DNA of 64,000 nucleotides. It comes from a virus. Position 1 is the stretch's first letter. Every line of letters begins with the position of its first letter. The position numbers and the translations under genes were made by a program. Below the pieces are notes generated by a model, which searched no databases, had not been told where the DNA came from, and saw nothing but the letters and a program-made list of their open reading frames with translations. Location: positions 124,001 through 188,000 of IMG/VR virus record IMGVR_UViG_3300046171_000252; one strand, 5' to 3'. This document shows positions 8,745 through 64,000 of this stretch, piece after piece.

Positions 8745-9034
8745 GAGGATACTATTCAGTCTTTGATCCTGATGGCAAGAAAATTGCTGATTGCGGTGCT
8801 ATCAAAGATGCCGTTAATCTTATTAGAACAAGAGGCGATGGGCATTACTATCAATTTAACCCAATCTATGAAACAGTTGACGTTCAACTCTTGGAAAGAC
8901 CAGAACTTCCTACTAGAGATATTACTATTGATGTGAATAGTAATTCTTATGAAGTAGAAGAACCTGAATACATTGAAGTTCAAGGACAAAAATTACAAAT
9001 ACAACAATCCGAACAACCCAAATTAGACTTATGA
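8741..9034 (+). CDS. Conserved cyanophage hypothetical protein (97 aa), TTG start
   Basis: Starts at TTG 8741 overlapping the gp41 stop (TTTTGA). The product MRGYYSVFDPDGKKIADCGAI... has a compact N-terminal domain and an acidic Gln-rich tail. It sits between gp41 and mazG. No enzymatic motif is seen and its function is unknown. Confidence 0.75.
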   Translation: MRGYYSVFDPDGKKIADCGAIKDAVNLIRTRGDGHYYQFNPIYETVDVQLLERPELPTRDITIDVNSNSYEVEEPEYIEVQGQKLQIQQSEQPKLDL

Positions 9035-9438
9035 GTAATGTAAACACTGATGCATATCTTGAGTTTGTGAATGCCGTCACATCTCAACCCAGTCAAGATG
9101 CCGATGCCTTTGAGTATCGTATTCAAGAACTTCGTGGAGAGGGATTTGAAACACACCGACTTCTTACTGCTGCTGTAGGAATGTCTGCCGAAGCAGGTGA
9201 GTTTACTGAAGTTGTAAAGAAGATTATCTTTCAAGGTAAACCAGTCAACGAAGAGAATCTGTTTCATCTTAAACGAGAACTTGGAGACATTATGTGGTAT
9301 GTTGCACAAGCATGTATGGGTCTCAATATTTCTCTTGATGATATCATTGAGATGAATGTTGATAAACTCAAATCACGATATCCTGGTGGTGAGTTTGATG
9401 TCCATTATTCTGAAAATCGTGTTGAGGGAGACCTATGA
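9031..9438 (+). CDS. mazG: MazG-like nucleotide pyrophosphohydrolase
   Basis: A 135-residue all-alpha NTP-PPase domain. The metal-binding motifs are visible as the EAGEFTEVVKK helix and ELGDIMWYVAQACMGL, which supply the E-x-x-E and E-x-x-D ligands. MazG-type enzymes hydrolyse (d)NTPs; in cyanophages the enzyme was proposed to tune nucleotide or ppGpp pools, though dNTPs such as dGTP are better supported substrates. It starts on an ATGA overlap with the preceding gene and lies in the replication cluster. Confidence 0.93.
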   Translation: MSNVNTDAYLEFVNAVTSQPSQDADAFEYRIQELRGEGFETHRLLTAAVGMSAEAGEFTEVVKKIIFQGKPVNEENLFHLKRELGDIMWYVAQACMGLNISLDDIIEMNVDKLKSRYPGGEFDVHYSENRVEGDL

Positions 9439-9632
9439 GTCAAGATAAAAAAGTAACATTAGAACTATCTGTCTATCAGGCAGCAGCAGTTCGTCAGTCA
9501 TTATTTACTGATATAAAAGGATATACTTATGATCCTACATGTTGTCCGCAACGTGTGATTGATATTCGTCAAGCAATTGTAAGTATTGATGAACAAATTG
9601 AGGAAATTGTGAATGATAACGAAAGTAGTTGA
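9435..9632 (+). CDS. Conserved cyanophage hypothetical protein (65 aa)
   Basis: A 65-residue soluble protein (MSQDKKVTLELSVYQAAAVRQ...) with a Cys pair (CC near residue 37) and predicted helix-loop-helix. It overlaps mazG by 4 bp and the following permease gene by 20 bp. Function is unknown. Confidence 0.75.
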   Translation: MSQDKKVTLELSVYQAAAVRQSLFTDIKGYTYDPTCCPQRVIDIRQAIVSIDEQIEEIVNDNESS

Positions 9633-10653
9633 ATCTATTTTAAAGAATGAACTCTATATGGGTTACATCTTTGGTATTATGATCTTGGGTGGTTTCATCC
9701 GGGATTATTCTGCATTAGAAGATGTATATGCTTTAGCAAAGAAATACATCAAGGATAATCGTGTCCTTGTTATTATCACATCATTGTTGGGTGGTATTCT
9801 TCCTATTCCAGGACGTGTTGCTTTATCGGCACCACTTCTTGATGCAATTGCACCACCTGATAAACAACGTCGTTCTGATTTTGGTGTGATTGATTATCTA
9901 TCTGTTCATCATTATTATTGGTGGTCTCCATTAGAGAAGACAGTTGTTCTTCCTATGGCAGTGATGGGAGTTTCTTATTCAACTTTTCTTGGATATACAA
10001 TCATTCCACTTATCATTACTCTTACTTATACCTGGTGGTATATTTTCACAAAAGTTCCTGCCACTTCTGTTATTCCTAATCTAGAATATGTTAGAGAATT
10101 TAATTGGAGACGTGCCATTACTGGGTGGGCACCTCTAATTGCTACTGTTATCCTTCTACTGAATACCGGTAAGGGGGGAGCAATATTCTTTTTCCCTTGG
10201 TTCCTTGGAATGGCAATCTATTATTCTATTGTGTTTAAGGATTGGAAGTGGGGTAAGTGGTTAGATGGTAAGTTTGCTATCATTGCTACTCTTGTCCTTG
10301 CCCTTGGTGGAGTGGTAGGATTAATCAAAGGTCCAGTCATGAACTATCTCCAAGCAGCAACGCCTGAAATGTTAGTTCCTGCATCTCTTGTTGCTATGGT
10401 TGCTGCCTACATTATGGGTTCATCTGGCAAGTATGCTGGTATGACCTCTGCACTTGTGGCAATCTTTGGACCTCAATATCTTGTTTGGTTTCTTTGTACC
10501 GAGTATTCTGGATACTTGATCTCACCCGCACATAAATGTTTGATGATCGGGCAACAATACTTTGGAACACCAATCAGAAAATACTACAACGTTCTTTCTA
10601 GATTGTGTGTTATACTGGTTGGATATGCGGCACTAGTTACATTCGTATTCTAA
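9613..10653 (+). CDS. Polytopic membrane permease, DUF401-like
   Basis: A 346-residue integral membrane protein with roughly nine hydrophobic segments. The segment GGILPIPGRVALSAPLLDAI (near residues 59-78) strongly recalls the LLPMPGGALxSAP signature of the DUF401 family, which belongs to the ion-transporter superfamily of uncharacterised anion or organic-acid permeases. A second re-entrant-like segment (YIMGSSGKYAGMTSALVAIFG) lies in the C-terminal half, consistent with the inverted-repeat architecture of that superfamily. The substrate is unknown. As a phage gene it is a candidate auxiliary transporter for the infected cell's inner or thylakoid membrane. Confidence 0.75.
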   Translation: MITKVVESILKNELYMGYIFGIMILGGFIRDYSALEDVYALAKKYIKDNRVLVIITSLLGGILPIPGRVALSAPLLDAIAPPDKQRRSDFGVIDYLSVHHYYWWSPLEKTVVLPMAVMGVSYSTFLGYTIIPLIITLTYTWWYIFTKVPATSVIPNLEYVREFNWRRAITGWAPLIATVILLLNTGKGGAIFFFPWFLGMAIYYSIVFKDWKWGKWLDGKFAIIATLVLALGGVVGLIKGPVMNYLQAATPEMLVPASLVAMVAAYIMGSSGKYAGMTSALVAIFGPQYLVWFLCTEYSGYLISPAHKCLMIGQQYFGTPIRKYYNVLSRLCVILVGYAALVTFVF

Positions 10654-10866: not shown

Positions 10867-10886
10867 AAGAATTGTGTTGTCTGGAA

Positions 10887-11711
10887 ATGAACTCCAAAGA
10901 AATTAATAGTATTGCAGAAGCATATGCTAAAATGAATATCCGAGGAAATGATTCTGAGGAGCAAAAAAAGCGTCTTGAGAAGAAGCGTGGTATGAAACTG
11001 GACGATCATCCACAATTTAAAAAGGAAGCAAAATTAGATCCTGTTGGTCAGGAAGATGAAGATATTAATAATGATGGTAAGAAAGACAAAACAGATAAGT
11101 ATTTGAAGAATCGTCGTAAGGCAATCGGTAATGCAATTGCCAAAGAGCAAGTTCATCTAAATGATATTTCCAAGACTTACTTAGATCAGATTGCGACTAA
11201 TGAAGATGAAATTGATGAGGCACTGACTGGTGAGCGTCGTCAGGCAGCTGCAAAGAAAATGAATACCGCAAAGTCTGGTAGTGATCGTGCCACTGCATTT
11301 AATCTTGCCACTCGCAATGACATGGGTTCTTCTTACCAGAAGAAATCAACCGGTGGTAAGGGTAGTAGATTCCCTGGATATGGAGACAGAGGTGCTGGTA
11401 ATGCAGCAGCACGTCGTCAAGGTAAGGAACCTATGAGACAAGGACCTGAAAAGAAAGTTTCTGAAGAAACCTTGAAAGCAACCGGATTGTTCTCTGAAAA
11501 AGAGATTGCTGCTATAGAAGAAGCAATGAGTTCTTATGACAAAAATCGTAAGAGAGCAGCACAAAGAGCAGCAGACAGAAATGCTGCCAGAGCTGCTGGT
11601 AAGACTGGTGTAGTTCCTGGTGTAGGTTATGTAACTCCTAATAAGGAGAGAGAAACTTATACTGATGAGAAGGGCACCGAACGCCATAAGTCAGGAGCAA
11701 AAATGTCATGA
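10887..11711 (+). CDS. Putative virion-associated protein with Ca-binding-like loop (274 aa)
   Basis: Basic, low-complexity protein starting MNSKEINSIAEAYAKM. Near residues 54-70 it contains EDEDINNDGKKDKTDKYL, an Asp/Asn-rich D-x-N-x-D-G-x-x-D loop like a single EF-hand or dockerin calcium site. The middle and C-terminal parts are Arg/Ala-rich with repeated A-A-R and A-A-K-K patterns. Similar proteins are annotated as virion structural in cyanophages. ATG 10887 is preferred over the out-of-pattern start at 10872. Confidence 0.7.
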   Translation: MNSKEINSIAEAYAKMNIRGNDSEEQKKRLEKKRGMKLDDHPQFKKEAKLDPVGQEDEDINNDGKKDKTDKYLKNRRKAIGNAIAKEQVHLNDISKTYLDQIATNEDEIDEALTGERRQAAAKKMNTAKSGSDRATAFNLATRNDMGSSYQKKSTGGKGSRFPGYGDRGAGNAAARRQGKEPMRQGPEKKVSEETLKATGLFSEKEIAAIEEAMSSYDKNRKRAAQRAADRNAARAAGKTGVVPGVGYVTPNKERETYTDEKGTERHKSGAKMS

Positions 11712-11919: not shown

Positions 11920-13440
11920 ATGTCTAAAAATATTACTATTCCGGGATATCTTGATGGTCCTTTGGGAGTTATTCTAGAGGCGATTGATAGCACTCGTGGT
12001 GTGGAAACTTCTCCTATTCCAATGAGTGTTAATCAAAGCGATGTTGATGAAAACCCTGACACTACCAAAACAGTTCTTTTTAAGGCAAAGATTCATGTAA
12101 ATCCGAGTAGAAGAACTGCTATTAGAGATGAGATTGTTGAGTATTTAAATGGTGTTTTGGATAAGGGCAATTTTAGTGATTTTGTAGAAGTAAGAAGTGG
12201 TACACCAACAAAACCTGACTCTGAGCAATTTGATGTTGTAGTCAAATATTCTGGCAAAAAACCACAAGTAATTAGAATACTAGTTAAACCAACTAATGCT
12301 GGTGGTTCTGGCGGTGGTGCTGCTAAAACTAAAATACAAGAAGTTGGTCAAGCATTATTCACTGCCATAAGATATCTTAAGAATAAAGACCTTGAGTGTC
12401 ATCCCGATGATATTTCAAACTGTTTGACGACTGCTGATTATGAGGCAGGTATGGAGTATGTGGATTGTAATAAAGAAGTCAAAATAGATGAAATAATGGG
12501 ACTTGAGCAGCAATGGAAAGATGCATTTATTTTAGGTGCTAATAAAATTCATAAGGAAGTTGGTGAAAGTGGATGGGAATTTTTGAGGGGAGATAGAATA
12601 GTTGATGATGGAGCACTTAAGAAAGCTTTCACTAGAGTAAAGAAAAATAGTCCGGCTGCACCAGATAATGAAGATAAATGGAATCCCTCTGACATATGGA
12701 TGATAAAGAAAAGTGAAAAGAATGCCATAGTATCAAAACTTGCAGAAGAAAATACGATAGATTGCTTAAATGAATATATTGCTTCAAAGTTTAAAGATAA
12801 AGAATTTATTGGATTATCTTTGAAGAAACTTGGTTCAAGTGCTAGATGGACTACGATGAATCCACCTAATACAAAACAACTTGATAAAGCAAAAAAGGTC
12901 AGATTTATTAGATCTAAAACTTTGCAGGAACTGACAGCATTCTCTGCCATGGATGTATATTTTGTTTTTGCACCATCAGGAAGTAAGACTAAGGATAGTT
13001 TTCAGGCAAGAAATTTTGCAGGAACTAATAGGGGAGATTGGAAGTTGGAAATTAAAGGGGAATTTGCTGCTCAGGGAAAAATTCAGGGGCAGGTAATGAG
13101 AAATCTTTTGACTGCTGCTGGTTTTTCTAAACCTGTTCCTAATGAACCATCTTTTGATGATTGCAAACCAGGATCTAATAAGGTGCAGGCAATTAATAAA
13201 GAAATTTACGATATAATGAATGGGTTAAGTCCTAAACCAAAAGGATGGAATGCTAAAACTGCACAAGCAGAAATTCGCACAAAGGATGCTTCATGGAGGT
13301 ATAGTAAGTTGGCAGGACTAAGACTTTTGGAATGGTTGATGAGTCTCCCTCAATCGGATGCAAATCGTGCTACGAAGGAGATGTATCTTTATGCATCTTC
13401 TCAAACTGATAAATCATCTGTTCATTATAAAATTTATTAG
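11920..13440 (+). CDS. Large uncharacterised protein, possible nuclease-like or virion protein (506 aa)
   Basis: The product begins MSKNITIPGYLDGPLGVILEAI. Region 70-130 has alternating beta strands, EQFDVVVKY then VIRILVKP, which resembles a D...(E)xK nuclease core but lacks the expected Glu. A central DKWNPSDIWMIKK block is well defined. The C-terminus is helical and basic. It sits inside a block of putative virion proteins and is preceded by AT-rich DNA without a strong ribosome binding site. Function cannot be assigned from sequence alone. Confidence 0.75.
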   Translation: MSKNITIPGYLDGPLGVILEAIDSTRGVETSPIPMSVNQSDVDENPDTTKTVLFKAKIHVNPSRRTAIRDEIVEYLNGVLDKGNFSDFVEVRSGTPTKPDSEQFDVVVKYSGKKPQVIRILVKPTNAGGSGGGAAKTKIQEVGQALFTAIRYLKNKDLECHPDDISNCLTTADYEAGMEYVDCNKEVKIDEIMGLEQQWKDAFILGANKIHKEVGESGWEFLRGDRIVDDGALKKAFTRVKKNSPAAPDNEDKWNPSDIWMIKKSEKNAIVSKLAEENTIDCLNEYIASKFKDKEFIGLSLKKLGSSARWTTMNPPNTKQLDKAKKVRFIRSKTLQELTAFSAMDVYFVFAPSGSKTKDSFQARNFAGTNRGDWKLEIKGEFAAQGKIQGQVMRNLLTAAGFSKPVPNEPSFDDCKPGSNKVQAINKEIYDIMNGLSPKPKGWNAKTAQAEIRTKDASWRYSKLAGLRLLEWLMSLPQSDANRATKEMYLYASSQTDKSSVHYKIY

Positions 13441-13441
13441 T

Positions 13442-13666
13442 ATGAAACCTGAAATAAAAGAACTAGTAAAATCCTTCAAATCAAAGAAGAAAAATGAGCG
13501 GGAAAGATATAATGATTTTCTTTATCATTGCTTTATGGCATATCATGATAAAGTAAAATCAAAATCGCCAGATAAGGTTAAGAATAAATATATTATTATG
13601 AGGGATAGTATGCTTAAATACCTCATAGCACATGAACAAGAAGTAATAGAACAATTAAGTAAATGA
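13442..13666 (+). CDS. Small basic helical protein (74 aa)
   Basis: Begins 1 bp after the previous stop (TAG T ATG) as MKPEIKELVKSFKSKKKNER. It is Lys-rich and all helical, with no known family. The ORF could extend to 13358 only by overlapping the 506-aa gene, so ATG 13442 is chosen. It overlaps the next gene by 4 bp. Confidence 0.7.
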   Translation: MKPEIKELVKSFKSKKKNERERYNDFLYHCFMAYHDKVKSKSPDKVKNKYIIMRDSMLKYLIAHEQEVIEQLSK

Positions 13667-15012
13667 AGTCTTTCTTTCAATTTCTGCGTGAGAGTACTGC
13701 TGTTCAACAAGCCACCCGTCTTGGATTAAAGACTGATGGTCATGGTGGATGGTATGATAATAAGGGAGAGTTTGTTGCAAAGACAGAAAAGGGAACACTA
13801 AAATTTTTTAATAAGCGTCAGAGAGTAGGAAAGCAAGATCCGCCACAAACTGATAAAGAAAAGAATTTATCTGCAACATCATCGGCACCTGCTGCCGCAC
13901 CAGAGGAACCCACACAGGCAAAAGCAGCACCGGAACAAGAACCACAAAAAGATGCCAACACTCCTGTAGTATTAGAACCACCTGAAGTTGAGAAGACAAA
14001 AGGAACTCTCACAATTGCCTTTGGTAGATTTAATCCTCCTACTACCGGACATGAAAAACTTTTGGATACAGTTTCCAAGTCATCCGATGATGGTGATTAT
14101 GTTATTGTTCCATCGCGTAGTCAAGACCCCAAAAAGAATCCATTAGATACTGATACTAAAGTCTCTATCATGAGACAGATGTTCCCTCAACACAGTGAGA
14201 GAATTGTTAATGACCCTCAGAACAGAACCATCTTTGATGTCTTGAAGAAGGCACATATGGATGGGTATGCCAATGTAAGAATTGTTGGTGGTGCAGATCG
14301 CCAGAAAGAATTTGACAAGTTGGTTAATAATTATAATGGTAAGATGTATCAGTTTGATAATGTAGAGGTTCGTTCTGCCGGTGATCGTGATCCGGACTCT
14401 GATGATGTAGAAGGAATGTCTGCATCAAAGCAAAGAAAGGCAGCAGTAGAAAATAATTTTGATGCATTCTATAAAGGTATTCCCTCCTCAATGTCTAAGA
14501 AGGCAGCAAAGGAAATGTTTAATAATATTCGTCTTGCGATGAATGTTTCTGAAGGATGGAACATGTGGGAAATCTCTCCTATATTTGATTGGAAGAATCT
14601 TCGTGAAAATTATATCAAAAAGAATATATTCAACCTGGGTGAAATTGTTGAAAATTTAAATCATGGACTGGTTGGTAGAATTATTCGTAGAGGCACTAAT
14701 TATCTAATCTGTGTCACAGAGGATAACATTATGTTTAAGTCCTGGATTAAGGATGTTATGGAATCTAAGAAAGAAATGCCTAATGTTGCACCCAAAGATA
14801 GAGCAGCAATTAATGCTCGTGCGAAGAATGTTTTTAAGAAAGATTTAAAAGGAACTGTGGTTGGCATAAACGAACAAAAGAATACTGAGGTGTCTGGAGT
14901 TCCTGGTGATCAACGACTTATTGGAACTGATGCACACTTTAAATATGTAAAGTCTTTGGTTCCTGGAAGTGACTGGGGAAAACAATTCATAAATAAGTAT
15001 AGAAAAAAGTAA
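13663..15012 (+). CDS. Putative internal virion protein with nucleotidyltransferase domain (449 aa)
   Basis: The N-terminus MKSFFQFLREST resembles T4 capsid-targeting leaders. Residues about 65-110 are a Pro/Ala/Glu linker. Residues about 115-275 form a cytidylyltransferase-like domain with FGRFNPPTTGHEKLL, the HxGH-type motif (TTGH), and a later SASKQRKAA block equivalent to the ISSTxxR motif. The C-terminal part is uncharacterised. The family transfers nucleotidyl groups, as in NadD, NadM or CTP:phosphocholine enzymes. The combination suggests an enzyme packaged in the head and delivered with the DNA, which is inference. Confidence 0.8.
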   Translation: MKSFFQFLRESTAVQQATRLGLKTDGHGGWYDNKGEFVAKTEKGTLKFFNKRQRVGKQDPPQTDKEKNLSATSSAPAAAPEEPTQAKAAPEQEPQKDANTPVVLEPPEVEKTKGTLTIAFGRFNPPTTGHEKLLDTVSKSSDDGDYVIVPSRSQDPKKNPLDTDTKVSIMRQMFPQHSERIVNDPQNRTIFDVLKKAHMDGYANVRIVGGADRQKEFDKLVNNYNGKMYQFDNVEVRSAGDRDPDSDDVEGMSASKQRKAAVENNFDAFYKGIPSSMSKKAAKEMFNNIRLAMNVSEGWNMWEISPIFDWKNLRENYIKKNIFNLGEIVENLNHGLVGRIIRRGTNYLICVTEDNIMFKSWIKDVMESKKEMPNVAPKDRAAINARAKNVFKKDLKGTVVGINEQKNTEVSGVPGDQRLIGTDAHFKYVKSLVPGSDWGKQFINKYRKK

Positions 15013-15030: not shown

Positions 15031-16257
15031 ATGAGTAACACGATATCTGAAGAACCAAATACACAACAACCAGGTGGTGCTGTTGATAAAGTAAGGAAGG
15101 CTGCGAGGCAACTTGCTTATGATGTTCGCTACAAAGTAAAGGGACAATTTAAGGATGGCCAGAAATCTGATGCCGCATCCTTGAAGCGTGCTTACATGCA
15201 GCAACTGGGTAAGTCTCCTGCTCCTGGTCCTGTCAAAGTAATGGCAAAAAAGATGCTTATTGGAGAAGCATATGATTTAGTTGATGTATCTGATACTGTC
15301 AATGAATCTGTTGTCAATGCACTTCTGAAAGTCTTTGCCAAGAAGACTCAGTTGGAAGATGCAGATGGAAATGTCGCATATGAGGTGACTGACATCGTTC
15401 AGGAGGAGATGAAGGATACGAAGTATAAAATTAGAGTTACTGATAAATCAACCGGTAAGACTTATGTCAGAATGGCAGACCGTGAAAAGATTAGTCAGTT
15501 GAGAGCAGACCCTAGAATCTCTTCTGTTGAGATGACCGGATACGGTGATTCATATGACAAACCTGTCGGTAAAGGAAAGGGTGAAGAAGAAAAGAAGGAG
15601 ACCGCAAAGGAAGAATTCATCCATGAGGTAAATGTAGAGGATGATAATCCTGATGCAAATACCAAGAAGATTGATGTAATGAAAGGTAAGAATAAAATTA
15701 TCATCAATCCAACTCAGTCTGAGGAGATGAAACCCGGAGAGGATACATCTGCAGAAAAGACCAAAGAGAGTTCTGCCGATAAGAGAATCAGAATGGTTAA
15801 GAGAAAGATTCTCCAGAGCAAGATGCAAGCAGTTCGTCAGGGTGCCGGTGCAGATATTGTTGCTCATACTGAATTAGAGGGTGAAGAAATTTCTGAGAAA
15901 GCAGGAAGCGAGTGTCCTCCCGAGTCTTCTTCCAAAAAAGAAAAAGAAGATACTGATGATTACAGAAGTATGCCTGCAAAGGTCAATATGGTTAGAAACA
16001 AATTGAGAGCAATGGGTCTCAAGATGTCGTATGAACCAGAAGGTGATATGGTTGAAGCAACTGAAGATTCATTGAAGGATCGCCGCATGGAGCGTGGTGG
16101 TGTTGGTGGCAACATTCGTTATGACAAAGCACCTAAACCTACCAACACTGCTGGTAAAAAGAAACCCTATGATGGTATGTCTGCAGTTGAAAAAGTAAAG
16201 GCAAGTATCCGTGCCAAGTACGGACAGGGTGCCATTATTGATACTAAGAAAAAGTAA
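15031..16257 (+). CDS. Putative virion structural protein, charged (408 aa)
   Basis: A Lys/Glu/Asp-rich protein with long disordered segments and short folded patches such as VNALLKVFAKKTQLEDADG (about 94-112). The C-terminus ends with KVKASIRAKYGQGAIIDTKKK. It has no enzyme motif. Position and composition match proteins annotated as structural in cyanophages. It overlaps the next gene by one base (TAATG). Confidence 0.7.
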   Translation: MSNTISEEPNTQQPGGAVDKVRKAARQLAYDVRYKVKGQFKDGQKSDAASLKRAYMQQLGKSPAPGPVKVMAKKMLIGEAYDLVDVSDTVNESVVNALLKVFAKKTQLEDADGNVAYEVTDIVQEEMKDTKYKIRVTDKSTGKTYVRMADREKISQLRADPRISSVEMTGYGDSYDKPVGKGKGEEEKKETAKEEFIHEVNVEDDNPDANTKKIDVMKGKNKIIINPTQSEEMKPGEDTSAEKTKESSADKRIRMVKRKILQSKMQAVRQGAGADIVAHTELEGEEISEKAGSECPPESSSKKEKEDTDDYRSMPAKVNMVRNKLRAMGLKMSYEPEGDMVEATEDSLKDRRMERGGVGGNIRYDKAPKPTNTAGKKKPYDGMSAVEKVKASIRAKYGQGAIIDTKKK

Positions 16258-16457
16258 TGCCTGCAGTATCACAAAAGCAACAGAAGTTCTTTGGAATAGT
16301 TCGTGCCATCCAAAAAGGAGAAATGGCACCGACGACTCCTGAGACTGCAAAGGCAGCTGCCGATATGAAGAAGAAAGATGTGAAGGACTTTGCATCTACT
16401 AAACATAAAGGTCTTCCTGAGAAAAAATCTCTCAAAGAGTTTTTGGAGAATATATAG
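16257..16457 (+). CDS. DUF3008 family small protein (66 aa)
   Basis: MPAVSQKQQKFFGIVRAIQK, then PETAKAAADMKKKDVKDFA and STKHKGLPEK match the DUF3008 pattern (MPAVSKxQQxxMG ... MKKKDxKDFASTKHKGLP). The family is found in bacteria and phages and has no known function. The basic C-terminus KSLKEFLENI recalls an amphipathic tail. Confidence 0.85.
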   Translation: MPAVSQKQQKFFGIVRAIQKGEMAPTTPETAKAAADMKKKDVKDFASTKHKGLPEKKSLKEFLENI

Positions 16458-16682: not shown

Positions 16683-18170
16683 ATGAACCAGAAACACATT
16701 AAGGAAGAGGGTCTGCGTGATTGGTTTGGTAAATCTAAATCAAAAGGTGGCAAAAAAGGATGGGTCAATGTCGTGACAGGAGATTCCTGTGCAAGTGACA
16801 AACCCGGTGAAGGTATTCCTAAATGTGTTTCTTCTTCTAAAAGGGCAAGTATGTCCAAGAAAGAAAGAGTTGCTGCTCAGGCAGCAAAGAGAAGAGAAGA
16901 TCCTGGTCAACAAAAGAAGTCTGGAGCATCTAAACCCACTATGGTAAAAACTGACCGTAAAGTAAGAAAAGAGGCAATGGAAGTTAATGGCGCACTTGAT
17001 GAAAATGTTTCATCTGGAAAATCACGTCTGGCTAAAATGGGTAGGGTTTCCGGAAAACCTACTGGTGCCATTACTAATACAGAAAAATCGGCAGAATTAA
17101 AAAAACAAAAAGACACAGAAAAGTCAAAGGATAAAGCAGTTGCAAATAAAGTTGATGTATCAGGAATGAGTCCTTTTGATGCAGCCAGGGTAAAGAAGAG
17201 AGCAGAATTTAAAGCAGAAAAGGAAAGATTGAGAGCACAGAAAAAAATGAGAAGAGAAGAGACTGAAGTACTTGATGAAGCAAAAGATAAGAAAGGTAAA
17301 GGCAGTGGATCTAAAGATGCCTGTTATCATAAGGTGAAGTCTCGTTATTCTGTATGGCCTTCTGCTTATGCATCTGGAGCACTTGTAAAATGTCGTAAGG
17401 TTGGTGCTGCCAACTGGGGTAATAAGAGTGAAGAGACTGAATTTGATTCTATCTCCTTCCAACAATTTCAAGAGAAGTGTTGGAAAGGTTATGAGAAGAA
17501 AGGTATGAAAAAAATGTTTGGTAAGAAATATCCAAACTGTGTTAAGAAGGAGGGATATGCACCTGGTGATGTGGATCAGAAAGTCGGTGCTGTCACTGCT
17601 ATTCCTAAGAGCGAACAGGATGCTGCCAAAGCAAGAATACTTGCAAAGACAAAGGCAAAAATGAAGAAAGAGGAAGTTGAAGAAATTGGTGAGGGTAAGT
17701 ATTCTAGTTCAGTCAGAGCCACCTATGGCGGAAAGACAGAAACTTTCCCTGTAGAGATTTATAGAAAAAAGTCAAAAAAAGCAGAGGCAAAAAAAGTAGA
17801 GGTAAAAGAAGGTGATGGCGATCCTTGCTGGGATACTCATAAACAAGTTGGCATGAAGAAGAAAGGTGGCAAGATGGTGCCTAACTGTGTGCCAAAAAAC
17901 GAGGAGGTAGAGACTCAGAATGAAGGAGCAGCATGGACAAAAAAATCCGGTAAGTCAGAATCCGGAGGACTCAATGAAAAAGGACGTAAGTCTTATGAAA
18001 GAGAAAATCCTGGTAGTGATCTAAAAGCACCATCTAAAAAGAAAGGCAACAAACGTAGAGCATCATTCTGTGCTAGAATGAAAGGTATGAAAAAGAAACT
18101 AACCTCTGCTAAAACTGCAAGAGATCCTGATAGCAGAATTAATAAGTCTCTTAGAGCTTGGAATTGCTGA
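16683..18170 (+). CDS. Modular Lys/Cys-rich virion-like protein (495 aa)
   Basis: Very basic protein built from Cys-containing modules. The N-terminal module is KEEGLRDWFGKSKSKGGKKG, then GDSCA and IPKCV. A central module is CYHKVKSRYSVWPSAYASGA ending in LVKC (DUF5872-like). Next come two motifs ending in PNCV: KCWKGYEKKGMKKMFGKKY and DPCWDTHKQVGMKKKGGK. The C-terminal module has WTKKSGKSESGGLNEKGRKS, SFCARMKGMK and RAWNC (DUF6321-like). Disordered Lys/Glu linkers join them. The composition suggests DNA condensation or internal head packing, which is inference. Confidence 0.75.
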   Translation: MNQKHIKEEGLRDWFGKSKSKGGKKGWVNVVTGDSCASDKPGEGIPKCVSSSKRASMSKKERVAAQAAKRREDPGQQKKSGASKPTMVKTDRKVRKEAMEVNGALDENVSSGKSRLAKMGRVSGKPTGAITNTEKSAELKKQKDTEKSKDKAVANKVDVSGMSPFDAARVKKRAEFKAEKERLRAQKKMRREETEVLDEAKDKKGKGSGSKDACYHKVKSRYSVWPSAYASGALVKCRKVGAANWGNKSEETEFDSISFQQFQEKCWKGYEKKGMKKMFGKKYPNCVKKEGYAPGDVDQKVGAVTAIPKSEQDAAKARILAKTKAKMKKEEVEEIGEGKYSSSVRATYGGKTETFPVEIYRKKSKKAEAKKVEVKEGDGDPCWDTHKQVGMKKKGGKMVPNCVPKNEEVETQNEGAAWTKKSGKSESGGLNEKGRKSYERENPGSDLKAPSKKKGNKRRASFCARMKGMKKKLTSAKTARDPDSRINKSLRAWNC

Positions 18171-18788: not shown

Positions 18789-19112
18789 ATGAAGTACTTT
18801 TTTGCACTTCTCATTACACTATTTTTTGCCATGCCAGCATGGGCAGTTGATGTCTCAATGGGTTCTGACGGAAACCTAGTATTTGAACCAAATGAGATTA
18901 CAATCTCTGCTGGTGAGACAGTTCATTTTGTAAACGAAGCATTACCTCCTCACAATATTATTGTAGAGGCTCGTCCGGATCTTTCTAGAGAAGCACTATT
19001 ATTTGCTCCCGGAGAAACACAGGATGTTGTATTTGCTGATGCAGGAGACTATAATTTCTTCTGTGGTCCTCATCAGGGAGCAGGTATGACTGGCGTCATT
19101 CACGTAAATTAA
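18789..19112 (+). CDS. petE: Plastocyanin
   Basis: A 107-residue blue copper protein. The signal peptide MKYFFALLITLFFAMPAWA is cleaved after residue 19, sending it to the thylakoid lumen or periplasm. The copper ligands are all present: His55 (PPHNI), Cys92, His95 and Met100 in FCGPHQGAGM. Plastocyanin carries electrons from cytochrome b6f to photosystem I. As a phage auxiliary gene it would keep photosynthetic electron flow going during infection alongside the D1, D2 and Hli proteins encoded here. The mature form of about 88 residues is slightly shorter than host versions. Confidence 0.95.
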   Translation: MKYFFALLITLFFAMPAWAVDVSMGSDGNLVFEPNEITISAGETVHFVNEALPPHNIIVEARPDLSREALLFAPGETQDVVFADAGDYNFFCGPHQGAGMTGVIHVN

Positions 19113-19122
19113 ATTAATTAAA

Positions 19123-19593
19123 ATGAAAGTAGGAATGATTGGGTTAGGTCGTACTGGTGAAGGTATGGCCCGCCGTATGATCGAAAAAGGAATTGAAGTT
19201 TGGGGTTATAGTAGTACTAACTATGAAAATGCCTGTGGACAATATGAAGCAGGGCACCTTAGTGGATGTGTAACTTCAATAGAGTATCTTGTCCGAGCAG
19301 TTAAAACTGATAATAAAAAATTTACTAGTGCTGGTAGAATTCCTGGCATCTTTCAGATTACACTCCCAGAGCAAAAGGCAGAAGACACACTTGATGAGTT
19401 GCTACCTTTACTTGAAGAGGGTGATATTATTATTGATCACAGCACCAGTGACATAAAAAAATGTCAGGAACTTGAAAAGTATTGTTCTAAGTTAGGTATA
19501 TCCTATATCTTCTCTGGTGTATATGGATCACCTGGTTCTATTAATGTTTGTTCAAAAATTTTTCAATCCTTATCACCAGGTAATATTAAATGA
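19123..19593 (+). CDS. gnd: 6-phosphogluconate dehydrogenase, N-terminal domain only
   Basis: A 156-residue protein matching the NADP-binding half of Gnd: GLGRTGEGMARRMIEKGIEV (residues 7-26, GxGxxG), then an FQITLPEQKAEDTLDELLP block and EEGDIIIDHSTSD where Gnd has DxGNS. The C-terminal helical substrate and dimer domain is absent; the ORF closes at TGA 19591, which overlaps the next ATG. Full-length Gnd is over 300 aa, so oxidative pentose phosphate activity is doubtful. It could be a decaying gene or a repurposed NAD(P)-binding protein. It is adjacent to petE. Confidence 0.8.
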   Translation: MKVGMIGLGRTGEGMARRMIEKGIEVWGYSSTNYENACGQYEAGHLSGCVTSIEYLVRAVKTDNKKFTSAGRIPGIFQITLPEQKAEDTLDELLPLLEEGDIIIDHSTSDIKKCQELEKYCSKLGISYIFSGVYGSPGSINVCSKIFQSLSPGNIK

Positions 19594-19957: not shown

Positions 19958-21052
19958 ATGTCTCTTTGGGGAAAAAATGACAATAAACTTTCAACAGGAA
20001 CAGTTTCGGTAAATCATGCTAACCGAACTGTAGTTGGAAGCGGAACAACTTTTGGAGTAGCAGGTAATGGTGTAGTTGGTGATATTATCCGATTCGGTCA
20101 ACCATTAAGTGGTGCTGATGGATATTTTGGAGAAGCAGTTATCGTATCCGTTGCCAGTACTTTATCAATTAAAATTGATTCAGTAGAAGGATTGAGTGCG
20201 CGAGATATTACCGATAAAGCTTATCAGGTGACACAATCTCCAAAATCTACTCCTACTGATGCTGCTTTTAATAAGTTTTCAAGAGCAGTTGAAGAGCGTG
20301 GTGATCTCAAAATAACAACGGCAGTCAGTGGTGATGTCGCGGTTGGTGGAACTTCTATCACTATTACGGGTGATGCATCGGCATCTAGTCTTTTAGATAG
20401 TGACGTTCTTATCATCACTCATGGTGAGAGAAGAAAGAGGAGACAATTTAGTGAAGTCTATGGTATTGTAAGTGGTGGAAGCACTATTCTTGTTAAGAAT
20501 GGATTGAAAGGCGTACATAATATTTACAAAACTGATGGTACGGAATATAACATTGGTGCTAGTTCTATCATCCTTAGAGAGGCACTTTTCCGTACTGCTT
20601 TTGATGGTGGCATCGATGGAGCACATATAGACGAACTTTCTGTAGGTGATACATTTACTGCTGGAACCAACTCCATTGGAATTGGAACCATAAACGATAG
20701 AACTGAAACGAGTGCTACGGTTGTATTAAATACTGGTCTTACACAAAAAATTGATGCAAGTATTTTTGGAGCAAAAGTCACTATAAAGAGGGGAGCACTT
20801 AGTGGTTCCTTAGTTGAAGTTCGTGGTAAAGAAACTGTATCAGGTGATGAGACACAAGTTCTTGGTGTTTCAACTGATGGTACTGCACATGCTAATGGCA
20901 GTGCTTGGGAAGTTCCTCATGCTGGATGGGTGGGTGTTACGACATACATGGACATGCATGGAAATCTAAGAGTTAAGAAAGAAACTCTTGTTGCCATGTC
21001 TGGCATTGCAACTGGTAATGCACCAATCTACGATTCGAACCCATTTGCATAA
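19958..21052 (+). CDS. Virion structural protein (364 aa)
   Basis: MSLWGKNDNKLSTGTVSVNHANRTVVGSGTTFG is the start of a beta-rich, Gly/Thr/Ser-rich protein typical of cyanophage structural proteins. It has repeated short beta segments of the G-T-S-I-T-I-T-G and V-G-D-T-F-T-A-G kind. It has no enzymatic motif and is transcribed from a late promoter. I cannot say whether it belongs to head or tail. Confidence 0.8.
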   Translation: MSLWGKNDNKLSTGTVSVNHANRTVVGSGTTFGVAGNGVVGDIIRFGQPLSGADGYFGEAVIVSVASTLSIKIDSVEGLSARDITDKAYQVTQSPKSTPTDAAFNKFSRAVEERGDLKITTAVSGDVAVGGTSITITGDASASSLLDSDVLIITHGERRKRRQFSEVYGIVSGGSTILVKNGLKGVHNIYKTDGTEYNIGASSIILREALFRTAFDGGIDGAHIDELSVGDTFTAGTNSIGIGTINDRTETSATVVLNTGLTQKIDASIFGAKVTIKRGALSGSLVEVRGKETVSGDETQVLGVSTDGTAHANGSAWEVPHAGWVGVTTYMDMHGNLRVKKETLVAMSGIATGNAPIYDSNPFA

Positions 21053-34521: not shown

Positions 34522-34540
34522 ACCTAAAGATACAACAAAT

Positions 34541-34614
<74 letters not shown>

Positions 34615-34633
34615 TTGTCCTTTTCTATTTCTT

Positions 34634-34837
34634 ATGGGCAAATATGATTTTGGTGGGCAACCACCAATAGCAGTCAACATCCTCAGACTCATTAGTGAGT
34701 TAGAAGGTTCTTCCCAAATGCTTAAATATATGGGATTTGAAGAAGATATGAATGCGATCAATGAAATGAAGAAGAGATACTATAAACTCTACTTCAAGAC
34801 CAATAAGGAAGAAAAGGCAAAAAACAATCCTCTGTAG
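34634..34837 (+). CDS. Hypothetical protein (67 aa)
   Basis: MGKYDFGGQPPIAVNILRLISELEGSSQMLKYMGFEEDMN... is a small helical protein between two tRNAs. Its last 10 bases overlap the 5' end of tRNA-Asn. No family is recognised. Confidence 0.7.
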   Translation: MGKYDFGGQPPIAVNILRLISELEGSSQMLKYMGFEEDMNAINEMKKRYYKLYFKTNKEEKAKNNPL

Positions 34838-34899
34838 CTCAGCGGTAGAGCCGACGACTGTTAATCGTCTGGTCGCAGGTTCGAATCCTGCCGGGGGAG
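34828..34899 (+). tRNA. tRNA-Asn (GTT)
   Basis: Acceptor TCCTCTG pairs with CGGGGGA with G-T wobbles. The anticodon loop CTGTTAA gives GTT, and the T-arm CGCAGGTTCGAATCCTG is canonical. The 5' end overlaps the end of the preceding small gene. Confidence 0.95.
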
Positions 34900-34928
34900 T
34901 TGACAGGATATTCATCTTGTCGTATACT
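34900..34928 (+). promoter_or_regulatory. Sigma-70 type promoter
   Basis: TTGACA (34900-34905), 17-bp spacer, TATACT (34923-34928). It starts at the base after tRNA-Asn and should drive tRNA-Gly and what follows. Confidence 0.8.
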
Positions 34929-34979
34929 ATGCTTGTCCGTGTGAAGGAAGTGTTTGAGGGATTTTTCTCTCACCACTCT

Positions 34980-35050
34980 GCGGGTTTAGTTTAGAGGTAA
35001 AACTAAAGGTTTCCAACCTTTCGTCAGGAGTTCGATTCTCCTAACCCGCT
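34980..35050 (+). tRNA. tRNA-Gly (TCC)
   Basis: Acceptor GCGGGTT pairs with AACCCGC, the anticodon loop reads TTTCCAA (TCC), and the T-arm CAGGAGTTCGATTCTCCT is canonical. A TCGGATT/AATCCGA hairpin (35052-35070) follows, perhaps a processing or termination signal. Confidence 0.95.
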
Positions 35051-35076
35051 TTCGGATTCCCGTAATCCGAGCATAG

Positions 35077-35178
35077 TATAAATACTTAACCATTTGTCTT
35101 TCAGTAATTAAAGTAACAAATGGTGATATTAACACGGGACAGTCGAGTCCCTATTCATCTGCGGGTATCCATTCCGCA
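35077..35178 (+). promoter_or_regulatory. Late promoter and structured 5' leader of beta-barrel gene
   Basis: TATAAATA (35077-35084) is followed by three hairpins: ACCATTTGT (35089-35097) with ACAAATGGT (35116-35124), GGGAC with GTCCC (35136-35151), and TGCGG with CCGCA (35160-35178). The gene starts at 35199. Such a leader could stabilise the message or regulate translation. Confidence 0.55.
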
Positions 35179-35198
35179 AGTAACTAAAGGTAAAACAA

Positions 35199-35568
35199 AT
35201 GTTTAAAACGACTATCGCTGCAGCTGCCGCTGCAATTGCTCTTGCTCCAGCTGCTGCCCTAGCCGGTCCCTACGTCAACGTAGAGACAAATGCAGGTTGG
35301 GTTGGCGACGATTATACTGCTGCCACGACAGATCTTCACGTAGGATTTGAAGGCGAAGTAGGTGCTGCTTCTTACTACGTCCAGGCTGGTCCTGCAATCG
35401 TCGCTGTTGACGGTGAAGAGACTGACACCCAGTTCTCTGGTAAAGGCAGGAGTTGGCGTCCCCGTTTCCGATGCTATCGGAGTATACGGTGAGCTCTCCT
35501 TCTTGACCGCAGAAGACGATGATGATTTCGGTGTTGGTGGTAAGTTGGGCGTCAAGTACAACTTCTGA
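35199..35568 (+). CDS. Small outer-membrane beta-barrel-like protein, frameshifted
   Basis: The signal peptide MFKTTIAAAAAAIALAPAAALA precedes alternating beta strands (YVNVETNAGWV, DLHVGFEGEVG, YVQAGPAIVAVDG). A run of three A at 35442-35444 breaks the frame. Removing one A joins FSGK to AGVGVPVSDAIGVYGELSF and ends at GVGGKLGVKYNF, a classic C-terminal aromatic beta-signal. The joined product is about 122 aa. It probably sits in the host outer membrane. Sequencing error is the likeliest cause of the break. Confidence 0.75.
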
Positions 35569-35606
35569 TCTTCAATATAGACACATAAACATCTAGATGT
35601 TATACT

Positions 35607-35634
35607 GGGGGTGCGACGGCATCCCCTTTTTTTT
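35607..35634 (+). terminator. Rho-independent terminator
   Basis: GGGGGTGC (35607-35614), loop GACG and GCATCCCC (35619-35626) form an 8-bp stem with one G-T pair, followed by eight T. Confidence 0.9.
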
Positions 35635-35699
35635 ATGAAAAAATATTTATAACTTTCATAACGAATCCAGGAACGCTGACCTCCCTTCTGTTACTGGGA

Positions 35700-35843
35700 A
35701 TGATAGCACTGATAGGGACACTGCATAACCATGCTCACTATGCAATGACTATGGATGCAGATTCTTACGTTAGACAATGGTGTAGAGCATCAGCAGAAAA
35801 CAAAAAGACCTGCATTCGTTATGGTGGAGACATGGACTATTGA
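35700..35843 (+). CDS. Small protein, start uncertain (47 aa)
   Basis: MIALIGTLHNHAHYAMTMDADSYVRQ... In-frame codons upstream add a hydrophobic LTSLLLLG stretch without a start codon, so either the start is non-canonical or a base is wrong upstream. Cys-containing soluble tail. No family is recognised. It ends at TGA over the next promoter. Confidence 0.4.
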   Translation: MIALIGTLHNHAHYAMTMDADSYVRQWCRASAENKKTCIRYGGDMDY

Positions 35844-35868
35844 CAAAACTTTATCTTTCCTATATAAT
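35840..35868 (+). promoter_or_regulatory. Consensus sigma-70 promoter for the hli operon
   Basis: TTGACA (35840-35845), 17-bp spacer, TATAAT (35863-35868), 28 bp before the hli start. Confidence 0.9.
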
Positions 35869-35895
35869 ATGTAAAGAAACATTACGGAGTGTATC

Positions 35896-36114
35896 GTGAC
35901 TGTAACAACCAATGATCGTGGACAACAGAATCTGTTTGCCAAAGAACCCCAGATGTACGTCTCTCAGACTGATGCAGAGCGTTACGGTTATGAGTCATAT
36001 GCAGAACGTGCAGAGAAATTGAATGGACGCACTGCTATGCTTGGATTTGTTGCTGCTGTCATCTCTTATGCTACTTCCGGTAGTGTATTTTTCTTTGGTG
36101 TCTTCGGATTCTGA
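35896..36114 (+). CDS. hli: High-light-inducible protein, GTG start
   Basis: A 72-residue one-helix chlorophyll-binding protein of the Hlip/ELIP family. The signature AERAEKLNGRTAMLGFVAAVISYATSG (residues about 36-62) has the ExxNGRxAMxGF motif that binds chlorophyll. Hli proteins protect photosystems by quenching and by carrying chlorophyll during repair. It starts at GTG 35896 behind CGGAG and is first in a run of membrane-peptide genes that includes a second hli. Confidence 0.95.
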   Translation: MTVTTNDRGQQNLFAKEPQMYVSQTDAERYGYESYAERAEKLNGRTAMLGFVAAVISYATSGSVFFFGVFGF

Positions 36115-36200
36115 TGACTGAAGTTATTTTCACCGTCACGACAGTTGCTTTTTTCTGTCTTCTCGGTTATACTGTGGAACAACTTTCAGAAACCTACTGA
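36114..36200 (+). CDS. Single-helix membrane peptide (28 aa)
   Basis: MTEVIFTVTTVAFFCLLGYTV then EQLSETY. It overlaps the hli stop and the next start by one base each, so translation is likely coupled. The size and topology match small photosystem-associated peptides, but no family is recognised. Confidence 0.6.
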   Translation: MTEVIFTVTTVAFFCLLGYTVEQLSETY

Positions 36201-36427
36201 TGGAAAACTCTCTACTTGAAATTCTGACTTATTATGTAATTGGAGGAGCACTGCTTGTCGGTGCGCCAGCAGTATTCTTTTTCGTAGTCTTCATGTCAGC
36301 TCTTCAAAATACGAAGGGTCGCATGGTAGGATACAAAGACCACAAACAGTATGGTGACATTTCATCTTATGAGAATGCACCAGTAGACCAAAGCAAATTT
36401 TATTTTACACTAGGAGAAAACACATGA
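36200..36427 (+). CDS. Small membrane protein (75 aa)
   Basis: MENSLLEILTYYVIGGALLVGAPAVFFFVVFMSAL is one long membrane helix, followed by a hydrophilic tail with Tyr and Asp. It lies between two hli genes in one operon, which suggests a thylakoid role, but function is unknown. Confidence 0.7.
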   Translation: MENSLLEILTYYVIGGALLVGAPAVFFFVVFMSALQNTKGRMVGYKDHKQYGDISSYENAPVDQSKFYFTLGENT

Positions 36428-36531
36428 ACGAAAACGCAGAACGCATCAATGGTTGGGCAGCAATGATCGGAGTCATTGCCGCAATGGGTAGTTATGCAAC
36501 AACAGGACAAATCATTCCAGGTATTTGGTGA
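36424..36531 (+). CDS. hli: Short high-light-inducible protein (35 aa)
   Basis: MNENAERINGWAAMIGVIAAMGSYATTGQIIPGIW keeps the core of the Hlip helix: E-R-I-N-G-x-x-A-M-x-G. It is the minimal form with almost no N-terminal extension. It overlaps the preceding gene by 4 bp. Confidence 0.85.
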   Translation: MNENAERINGWAAMIGVIAAMGSYATTGQIIPGIW

Positions 36532-36599
36532 TGGGATTTGTAGTAGCAGCACTGCTGTTTCTTATTCCAATTGGTGCAGCAGTTAGGAAATCATCATGA
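36531..36599 (+). CDS. Tiny membrane peptide (22 aa)
   Basis: MGFVVAALLFLIPIGAAVRKSS is a single hydrophobic helix with a basic end. It shares one base with the hli stop and overlaps the next ATG by 4 bp. The coupled overlaps are the only support. Confidence 0.45.
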   Translation: MGFVVAALLFLIPIGAAVRKSS

Positions 36600-36739
36600 G
36601 TATAGAATGGGCACAGGCAATTATTTTTTTCTTGGCACCCCTATTCTTTATGCTCCTCTTCATAGAAACTAATGAAGATGATGATGGACCACCAGATGGT
36701 GGAATGATGACGCCAGTATATGCACCAAACCCTGTGTAG
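36596..36739 (+). CDS. Small membrane protein with acidic tail (47 aa)
   Basis: MSIEWAQAIIFFLAPLFFMLLFI then ETNEDDDGPPDGGMMTPVYAPNPV. One membrane helix and an acidic, Pro-rich tail. Last of the hli-operon peptides. Function is unknown. Confidence 0.6.
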   Translation: MSIEWAQAIIFFLAPLFFMLLFIETNEDDDGPPDGGMMTPVYAPNPV

Positions 36740-36805
36740 TAACCAACACATTTAATTGACAGATAATAATCTTACTGCTTAAATAAAGGCAGTAGGATTA
36801 TTTTT

Positions 36806-36961
36806 ATGCCTCGCAATTCAATAACAAAAGAACAATTAAAATGTGATGTTCTTAAATTAAAAAATCAATTGAAAGATGAGTTTTGTTCTGAATCTAAAAA
36901 AGAAATTGCAGACATGTATTTAAATTTAGTTCTTGACAAAATTAATGAGTATAGATTATAA
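36806..36961 (+). CDS. Small helical protein (51 aa)
   Basis: MPRNSITKEQLKCDVLKLKNQ... is Lys-rich and helical. It is preceded by TTGACA (36756) and TTAAATAAAG (36779), an overlapping early/late promoter. Its end contains a second promoter (TTGACA 36933, TATAAT 36957, 18-bp spacer) for tRNA-Val. Confidence 0.65.
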   Translation: MPRNSITKEQLKCDVLKLKNQLKDEFCSESKKEIADMYLNLVLDKINEYRL

Positions 36962-36972
36962 TATTGTCATGG

Positions 36973-37044
36973 GGGCGATTAGCGCAGCGGTAGCGCAGTT
37001 GCTTTACACGCAATTGGTCGGCGGTTCGAATCCGTCATCGCCCA
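36973..37044 (+). tRNA. tRNA-Val (TAC)
   Basis: Acceptor GGGCGAT pairs with ATCGCCC, the anticodon loop CTTTACA gives TAC, and the T-arm GGCGGTTCGAATCCGTC is canonical. No CCA is encoded. Confidence 0.95.
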
Positions 37045-63370: not shown

Positions 63371-64000
63371 ATGGAAGTAATTACAGAAGGCAAGGTTAAA
63401 ACTGTTTATCGGGGTGATGATGCACAGCAAGTCATTATTGAGTATCATGATAAAGTGACTGCTGGTAATGGAGAGAAGGAAGATCATCCTTTAGGAAAAG
63501 GATCTCTCTGTTGCAGCATCTCATCAATTATCTTTGAGAAACTTGCCAAAGAAAATATTCCAACACATTATATTAATATGGTTGGTGCTAATAAGATGGT
63601 ATGTAAGAAGGTAGAAATTGTCCCATTAGAAGTTATCTGTAGAAATCGTGCTGCCGGATCTATTGTTCGTGAGACAACTCTGGTAGAAGGTGCTCCACTA
63701 CCACAACCGATTGTTGAGTTCTTTCTGAAAGATGATAGCAAACACGATCCTCTCCTAACACCAGACCGAGTGCGTCTGATGGGATATGATCCCGAACCTT
63801 TCATTGAGATGACCCTACGGATTAACGATTATCTCAGGCAGATGTTCTACATCATGGGTATTGATCTGGTTGATTTTAAAGTTGAGTATGGTTATGATGC
63901 TCATGGTGATTTGTATCTTGCCGATGAGATTAGTCCTGATAGTATGAGACTGTGGAAGATTGGTAGTGATGAGAGATTTGATAAAGACTTATTCAGGAAT
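63371..64000 (+). CDS. purC: PurC, SAICAR synthetase (cut by window end)
   Basis: The first 210 residues: EGKVKTVYRGDDAQQVIIEY (nucleotide-binding hairpin), VTAGNGEKEDHPLGKGSL, then PLEVICRNRAAGSIVRE (the conserved RNxxAGS), and GIDLVDFKVEYGYD and LADEISPDSMRLW. PurC ligates aspartate to CAIR in purine synthesis; full length is about 240 aa, so roughly 30 residues lie beyond the window. With purS at 1.7 kb it forms part of the phage purine supplement. Confidence 0.95.
   Translation, partial: MEVITEGKVKTVYRGDDAQQVIIEYHDKVTAGNGEKEDHPLGKGSLCCSISSIIFEKLAKENIPTHYINMVGANKMVCKKVEIVPLEVICRNRAAGSIVRETTLVEGAPLPQPIVEFFLKDDSKHDPLLTPDRVRLMGYDPEPFIEMTLRINDYLRQMFYIMGIDLVDFKVEYGYDAHGDLYLADEISPDSMRLWKIGSDERFDKDLFRN

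Follow-up and report, generated by a model that had tools for sequence, protein, structure and literature searches.

Closest described systems

Knowledge of the capsid-targeting leader of phage T4 comes from work on small internal proteins of coliphages. T4 IPII and IPIII begin with a 10-residue leader (MKTYQEFIAE) that is cut by gp21. In IPIII, the first 10 residues suffice for targeting, with residues 4 and 7 weighing most for targeting and residues 8 and 10 for processing (PMC9026906). T4 also packages an enzyme in its head, the ADP-ribosyltransferase Alt, with a presumed immediate action on the host. A packaging module fused to varied enzymes that are delivered with the DNA is likewise found in polyvalent proteins and MuF-fused effectors (PMC9503650). 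Among cyanophages, the nucleotidyltransferase (NTase) T4-GC190 was detected in virions of S-SM1; it is encoded in S-PM2 and was undetected in S-PM2 virions (PMC3037559). Its S-SCSM1 orthologue ORF91, called an NMNAT by the authors, was found in virions (PMC9602691), as was its S-CREM2 orthologue ORF154, with 3 peptides (PMC10665884).

A cyanophage nucleotidyltransferase gene

The gene described here lies in a viral record of 207,616 bases, of which positions 124001-188000 (64,000 nucleotides, hereafter the window) were analyzed; coordinates are those of the window unless stated otherwise. The open reading frame at 13663-15012 (+) is open throughout, starts with an ATG that overlaps the stop codon of the upstream ORF (ATGA) and encodes a 449 aa product with the N-terminus MKSFFQFLREST. 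This protein matches phrog_395 "cytidyltransferase" (PHROGs, E-value: 3e-103) and has relatives in 557 phage records, including the T4-like cyanomyophages S-SKS1 (67% identity) and P-SSM2 (57%; 56.6% before rounding), whose orthologue is labelled T4-GC 190. Gene order around the NTase gene is the same in the relatives, with the locus between mazG and gp61/nrdA. Judged by homology over the NTase region and by this shared locus, the product represents T4-GC190 (phrog_395), a core protein of cyanophages, in a T4-like cyanomyophage. It is thus an orthologue of the proteins described as cyanophage "cytitidyltransferase" or NMNAT, with the same domain order and locus and no essential difference from them.

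The features of the gene and its neighbors are listed in Table 1. An AlphaFold2 model of the 449 aa protein, built from 45 homologues, begins with a helix from residue 4 (the first ten residues being of low confidence), followed by a three-stranded sheet at aa 29-48 within a block of pLDDT about 83-89; after the disordered linker comes a confidently modelled NTase domain (aa 113-292, pLDDT mostly above 90), and the C-terminal beta domain is placed at aa 328-367. The initial annotation had described a leader followed by an acidic linker and an FGRFNPPTTGH nucleotidyltransferase. The last of these is borne out by the motif at aa 120-130 and by a Pfam CTP_transf_like match (aa 118-231, E-value: 2.3e-7). 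A linker is also present, but it does not directly follow the leader, as a conserved beta domain (aa 18-53) intervenes, and it is only weakly acidic (net -3 over aa 54-114), being rich in P, A, E, K and Q.

Table 1. Features of the T4-GC190 gene and of neighboring genes (window positions)
Feature	Position	Strand	Basis and remarks
MazG gene	9031-9438		
Neighbor with region similar to virion protein SSCSM1_89 (S-SCSM1)	10872..11711	+	blastp, 39 aa, 59% identity
Neighbor homologous to virion protein SSCSM1_90	11920..13440	+	blastp E 2.7e-20; phrog_1462 for both
Capsid-targeting-type leader MKSFFQFLRE (aa 1-10)	13663..13692	+	Conserved F4, F7, L/I8, E10; predicted helix aa 4-19, low confidence
Predicted cleavage by the prohead protease, C-terminal to E10	between 13692 and 13693	+	
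Small beta domain around GLKTDGHGGWYDNKGEFVAKTEKGTLKFFNKRQ (aa 18-53)	13714..13821	+	Three strands, pLDDT about 83-89; shared with unrelated proteins
Disordered P/A/E/K/Q-rich linker (aa 54-114), net charge -3	13822..14004	+	pLDDT <50 over most; composition; pN/pS 0.45
HIGH-superfamily nucleotidyltransferase domain (aa 115-292)	14005..14538	+	Pfam CTP_transf_like; pLDDT mostly >90; Foldseek
Nucleotide-binding motif FGRFNPPTTGH (aa 120-130)	14020..14052	+	R122, G129, H130 invariant in 45 homologues
ISSTxxR-type motif MSASKQR (aa 252-258)	14416..14436	+	S253, R258 invariant in 45 homologues
SH3/KOW-like beta domain (aa 313-372)	14599..14778	+	Five predicted strands; kept in homologues without NTase domain
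Variable C-terminal tail and stop	14779..15012	+	Low pLDDT, lower identity
Neighbor homologous to virion protein SSCSM1_93	16257..16457	+	69% identity
Neighbor homologous to virion protein SSCSM1_29	16683..18170	+	46% identity, 527 aa, E 1e-112
Neighbor homologous to virion (tail fibre) protein SSCSM1_95	19958..21052	+	Two blastp segments, 43-57% identity

A probable T4-type capsid-targeting leader

The resemblance of the N-terminus to the leader of T4 internal proteins, proposed from the sequence alone, holds at four residues shown to be important in T4: F4, F7, L8 and E10. Among 38 relatives (dereplicated, <90% identity), F7 and E10 are found in every sequence, position 8 always holds L or I, and position 4 holds F in 34 sequences and L in four, while positions 3, 5, 6 and 9 vary. 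Three of the aligned sequences are gapped at residue 9, which brings L and E together, and there are relatives in which position 8 is F or the E is displaced by one residue. The pN/pS ratio is 0.20 for the leader and 0.23 for the NTase domain, against 0.45 for the linker. At the level of sequence, conservation across relatives exactly at the T4-critical positions, together with this difference in pN/pS between leader and linker, confirms that the leader is not a chance resemblance.

The assembly proteins expected to act on such a leader are also encoded. The focal record contains homologues of the S-SCSM1 protease (69%), scaffold (67%) and major capsid protein (75%). The first two are of gp21 and gp22 type, respectively, and the capsid protein contains a matching site for cleavage. 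This site reads EFLGE/AAP in the focal major capsid protein and SFLAE/AP in that of S-SCSM1, both in the expected N-terminal region, and resembles the end of the leader (FLxE/A or S). The focal protein shares with T4 IPII and IPIII a 10-residue N-terminal leader with an aromatic residue at position 4, F7, I/L8 and E10, in a phage of the same kind with the same type of prohead protease and scaffold; in both systems, the leader is fused to unrelated cargo. The focal protein differs from IPII and IPIII in that its cargo is enzymatic and includes a folded NTase domain, its leader runs into a beta domain and its cut is a predicted one. A literature search, which covered mostly papers available without subscription, found capsid targeting and cyanophages joined in one T4 review only; the link of the cyanophage NTase to the T4-type capsid-targeting sequence is new here.

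For genome-wide searches, we defined a strict leader by the regular expression ^M.{1,4}[FYLMIW]..F[ILMV].E. Applied to the whole T4 genome, it returned three ORFs: IPII, IPIII and one of 54 aa. The last (NC_000866, 18966-19130, minus strand) starts MKTFKEFIKEDMVAG, fits the capsid-targeting pattern and is possibly a further small internal protein.

A leader and beta domain shared by unrelated proteins

The leader is not confined to NTases. An HMM of the beta domain matches NTases, kinases and phrog_3561 proteins. In S-CREM2, leader and beta domain together front two virion proteins: ORF14, an APH/RIO-like kinase that has an HxDxHxxN...DLG motif and carries the module twice, and ORF12, which belongs with an ACG-2014f protein to phrog_3561. 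Relatives of ORF14 and ORF12 with leader and beta domain occur in S-H34, S-N03 and S-B68, and a module search with the ACG-2014f protein found one relative. The leader alone fronts two further S-CREM2 proteins found in virions, the SAM lyase ORF6 (PF23780, E-value: 2e-19) and ORF13. Virion peptides number 28 for ORF12, 21 for ORF14 and 19 for ORF6. With regard to the identity of ORF12, Cas9 was considered and rejected: the protein has no Pfam or NCBIfam match, and its only assignments are phrog_3561 and an HNH-like motif (TGLP...DH...N...N..K) that is visible in five of the nine phrog_3561 members aligned.

The leader is also kept without the beta domain, namely in the NTases of S-CRM01, S-CREM2, C48C1 and the viral contig L130. 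In C48C1 (OQ984149), the cytidyltransferase CDS at 63514 is annotated from a start codon too far downstream; when translation begins at a GTG upstream of it, the leader IKNFSQYLLEEE immediately precedes the NTase core. Conversely, proteins of three other viral contigs (L182, 5935-6558; L190, 1943-2530; L191, 530-1117) combine the leader and the GHGG beta domain with the SH3-like domain but have no NTase in between, a natural domain deletion. In these combinations, leader, beta domain and enzyme behave as separable units. On balance, we favor the reading that cyanophages use a swappable head-delivery module, made up of a T4-type leader and the GHGG beta domain, to load unrelated enzymes for injection. 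Its cargoes would be the adenylyltransferase-like enzyme, the APH/RIO-like kinase and the phrog_3561 proteins, and for the leader alone the SAM lyase. In contrast to MuF and the giant multidomain polyvalent proteins (PMC9503650), this module would comprise a short leader of cleavable type and a small beta domain.

That relatives lose the NTase domain yet keep the leader, beta domain and C-terminal domain could also mean that the protein is packaged in a structural or DNA-organizing capacity, its NTase domain binding nucleotides or DNA with no catalytic role after entry. Its status as a core gene and the virion-protein homologues among its neighbors agree with such a role. We nevertheless consider this unlikely, as all 45 homologues keep R122, G129, H130, S253 and R258, which is expected of a working enzyme, and as a leaderless, stand-alone form of the NTase is known in many other phages.

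Predicted enzyme chemistry

The Pfam CTP_transf_like match above cut-off, the predicted Rossmann-like fold and the invariant residues in motifs of the (H/T)xGH and ISSTxxR types place the domain in the HIGH superfamily of nucleotidyltransferases. When the NTase domain was compared with the PDB using Foldseek, the best matches were NadM, PPAT/CoaD and NadD, the top one being a bifunctional NadM NMN adenylyltransferase; TM-scores (target) to single-domain NadD, NMNAT and PPAT structures were about 0.55-0.73. The domain has the predicted fold and the HIGH-type motifs (GRFNPPTTGH, MSASKQR) in common with the NadM, CoaD and NadD adenylyltransferases, but its identity to them is about 11-17%, it falls below the family cut-offs and the record lacks a NadV partner. 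Cytidylyltransferase as a literal function is unsupported: the close structural matches are adenylyltransferases, and PDB sequence searches gave weak PPAT matches only. The fold comparison indicates that the chemistry is probably adenylyl transfer, with NMN as a candidate substrate.

The top Foldseek match and the name NMNAT given by the S-SCSM1 authors would also suit a NadM/NadR-like enzyme that is produced for NAD salvage once infection is under way and whose presence in virions is incidental. We regard this as quite improbable for three reasons. First, the NCBIfam equivalog models for NadM, NadR and CoaD score far below their cut-offs, and the NadM/NadR models TIGR01526 and PRK01153 reach 20.8 bits against a cut-off of 341 and 15.5 against 127, respectively. 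Second, no NAPRTase (NadV) was found in the 207,616-base record, although NadV is reported to accompany phage NadM in all cases; NadV-NadM salvage is therefore rejected. Third, Pfam detected no Nudix or kinase partner domain in the focal protein.

Virion association

Since orthologues have already been published as components of S-SM1, S-SCSM1 and S-CREM2 virions, virion association is not itself new. All three of these orthologues carry the leader (MKKFSAFLNEAE, MKSFLQFLKEAA and MKNFSSFLTEAD, respectively), which supports the initial proposal of a packaged enzyme; absence from purified virions, named there as counter-evidence, is not what is found for these orthologues. The S-PM2 NTase is leaderless and forms part of a fusion with T4-GC71 (the S-PM2 record is that of a deletion mutant), and no strict leader was found anywhere in this record. 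Similarly, the NTase of PA5oct is without leader and without an MS tag, while its neighbors are MS-tagged. The agreement between leader presence and virion detection in these five cases is suggestive. Non-detection in S-PM2 and PA5oct could be a matter of sensitivity.

Across the S-CREM2 genome, the strict leader is present in 4/219 genes, compared with 0.16 expected from shuffles. Each of the four genes encodes one of the 52 virion proteins (Fisher p = 0.0029, or 0.00035 with known structural proteins removed), an enrichment for which some N-termini were known before the regular expression was fixed. S-SCSM1 has two annotated strict-leader genes, the NTase, which is flagged as a virion protein, and a 106 aa ORF, which is not. 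With one of two flagged, the enrichment rests mainly on S-CREM2. Since many other virion proteins do without the leader, packaging does not generally depend on it. In the focal record, the only plausible genes with a strict leader are the NTase gene and a 96 aa ORF. The latter, at record positions 106098-106388 (outside the window), starts MKDFNKFIEEAASKRCPLGQYYCYTDKKCK and resembles the N-terminus of virion protein SSCSM1_29. Genes near the focal NTase gene encode homologues of S-SCSM1 virion proteins (Table 1), in agreement with a packaged enzyme.

It is quite unlikely that the NTase, as an enzyme abundant during infection, merely co-purifies with virions as a contaminant or bound to their surface, and that its N-terminal helix serves for oligomerization instead of targeting: authors of the virion studies do allow for a highly expressed contaminant of CsCl preparations, and S-CREM2 ORF154 gave only 3 peptides, but the leader is also found on unrelated virion proteins including ORF12, ORF14 and ORF6, its conservation is at the T4 capsid-targeting residues and not in a generic helix pattern, and S-CREM2 replication enzymes such as polymerase and primase are missing from the virion list.

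Proposed mechanism

With orthologues in virions and with the T4-critical residues and the major capsid protein site matched, the reading of a capsid-targeting leader on a packaged enzyme stands. We consider it likely that this T4-like cyanophage houses the NTase within its head as an enzyme that is docked by its leader, cut after E10, ejected with the DNA and active early; virion presence is taken from the orthologues, while we infer docking, cleavage, ejection, activity and substrate. F4 and F7 of the leader would dock the precursor to the prohead core, and a gp21-type prohead protease would cut after E10. The mature head would then keep the beta domain, linker, nucleotidyltransferase and SH3-like domain; for S-SCSM1, the predicted cut would give AAESGASVQAK in place of EAAESGASVQAK. 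At infection, the enzyme would be ejected with the DNA and act before phage gene expression. As its most likely activity, it would transfer adenylyl groups either to a small molecule, for example NMN (NAD supply), or to a host target. The initial comparison with T4 Alt is useful as an analogy of delivery, that of a head-packaged enzyme; the two proteins are unrelated in fold and chemistry.

Genomic neighborhood

Short N-terminal motifs, for example NSxxEAY or LPDMSxAL, are common to SSCSM1_89, the product of the neighboring gene at 10872, SSM1_191, PSSM4_156 and SRIM2_176, and may represent a second leader type. The gene at 9613-10653 encodes a 346 aa polytopic membrane protein with a match to DUF401 (PF04165, E-value: 5e-10), an unusual cyanophage cargo. 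A plastocyanin-type gene (PF00127) at 18789-19112 adjoins a 156 aa ORF (19123-19593) that corresponds to the NAD-binding part only of 6-phosphogluconate dehydrogenase (PF03446), and four tRNA genes (Arg, Asn, Gly and Val) are found at 34540-37044. The late-promoter motif ATAAATA has 15 matches in the window; as this count is no more than chance, the motif was not used as evidence.

Implications for cyanophage biology

Enzymes of unknown delivery recur in cyanophage virions. If the leader is a sorting signal, it would explain how the NTase, the kinase and the SAM lyase enter the head, open their delivery to tests on available MS data and provide a sequence handle for effectors injected into ocean cyanobacteria. 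If the swappable-module reading is true, the module would predict unknown injected effectors from sequence. As T4-GC190 belongs to the core gene set of marine T4-like cyanophages, a role for the NTase at entry would apply widely.
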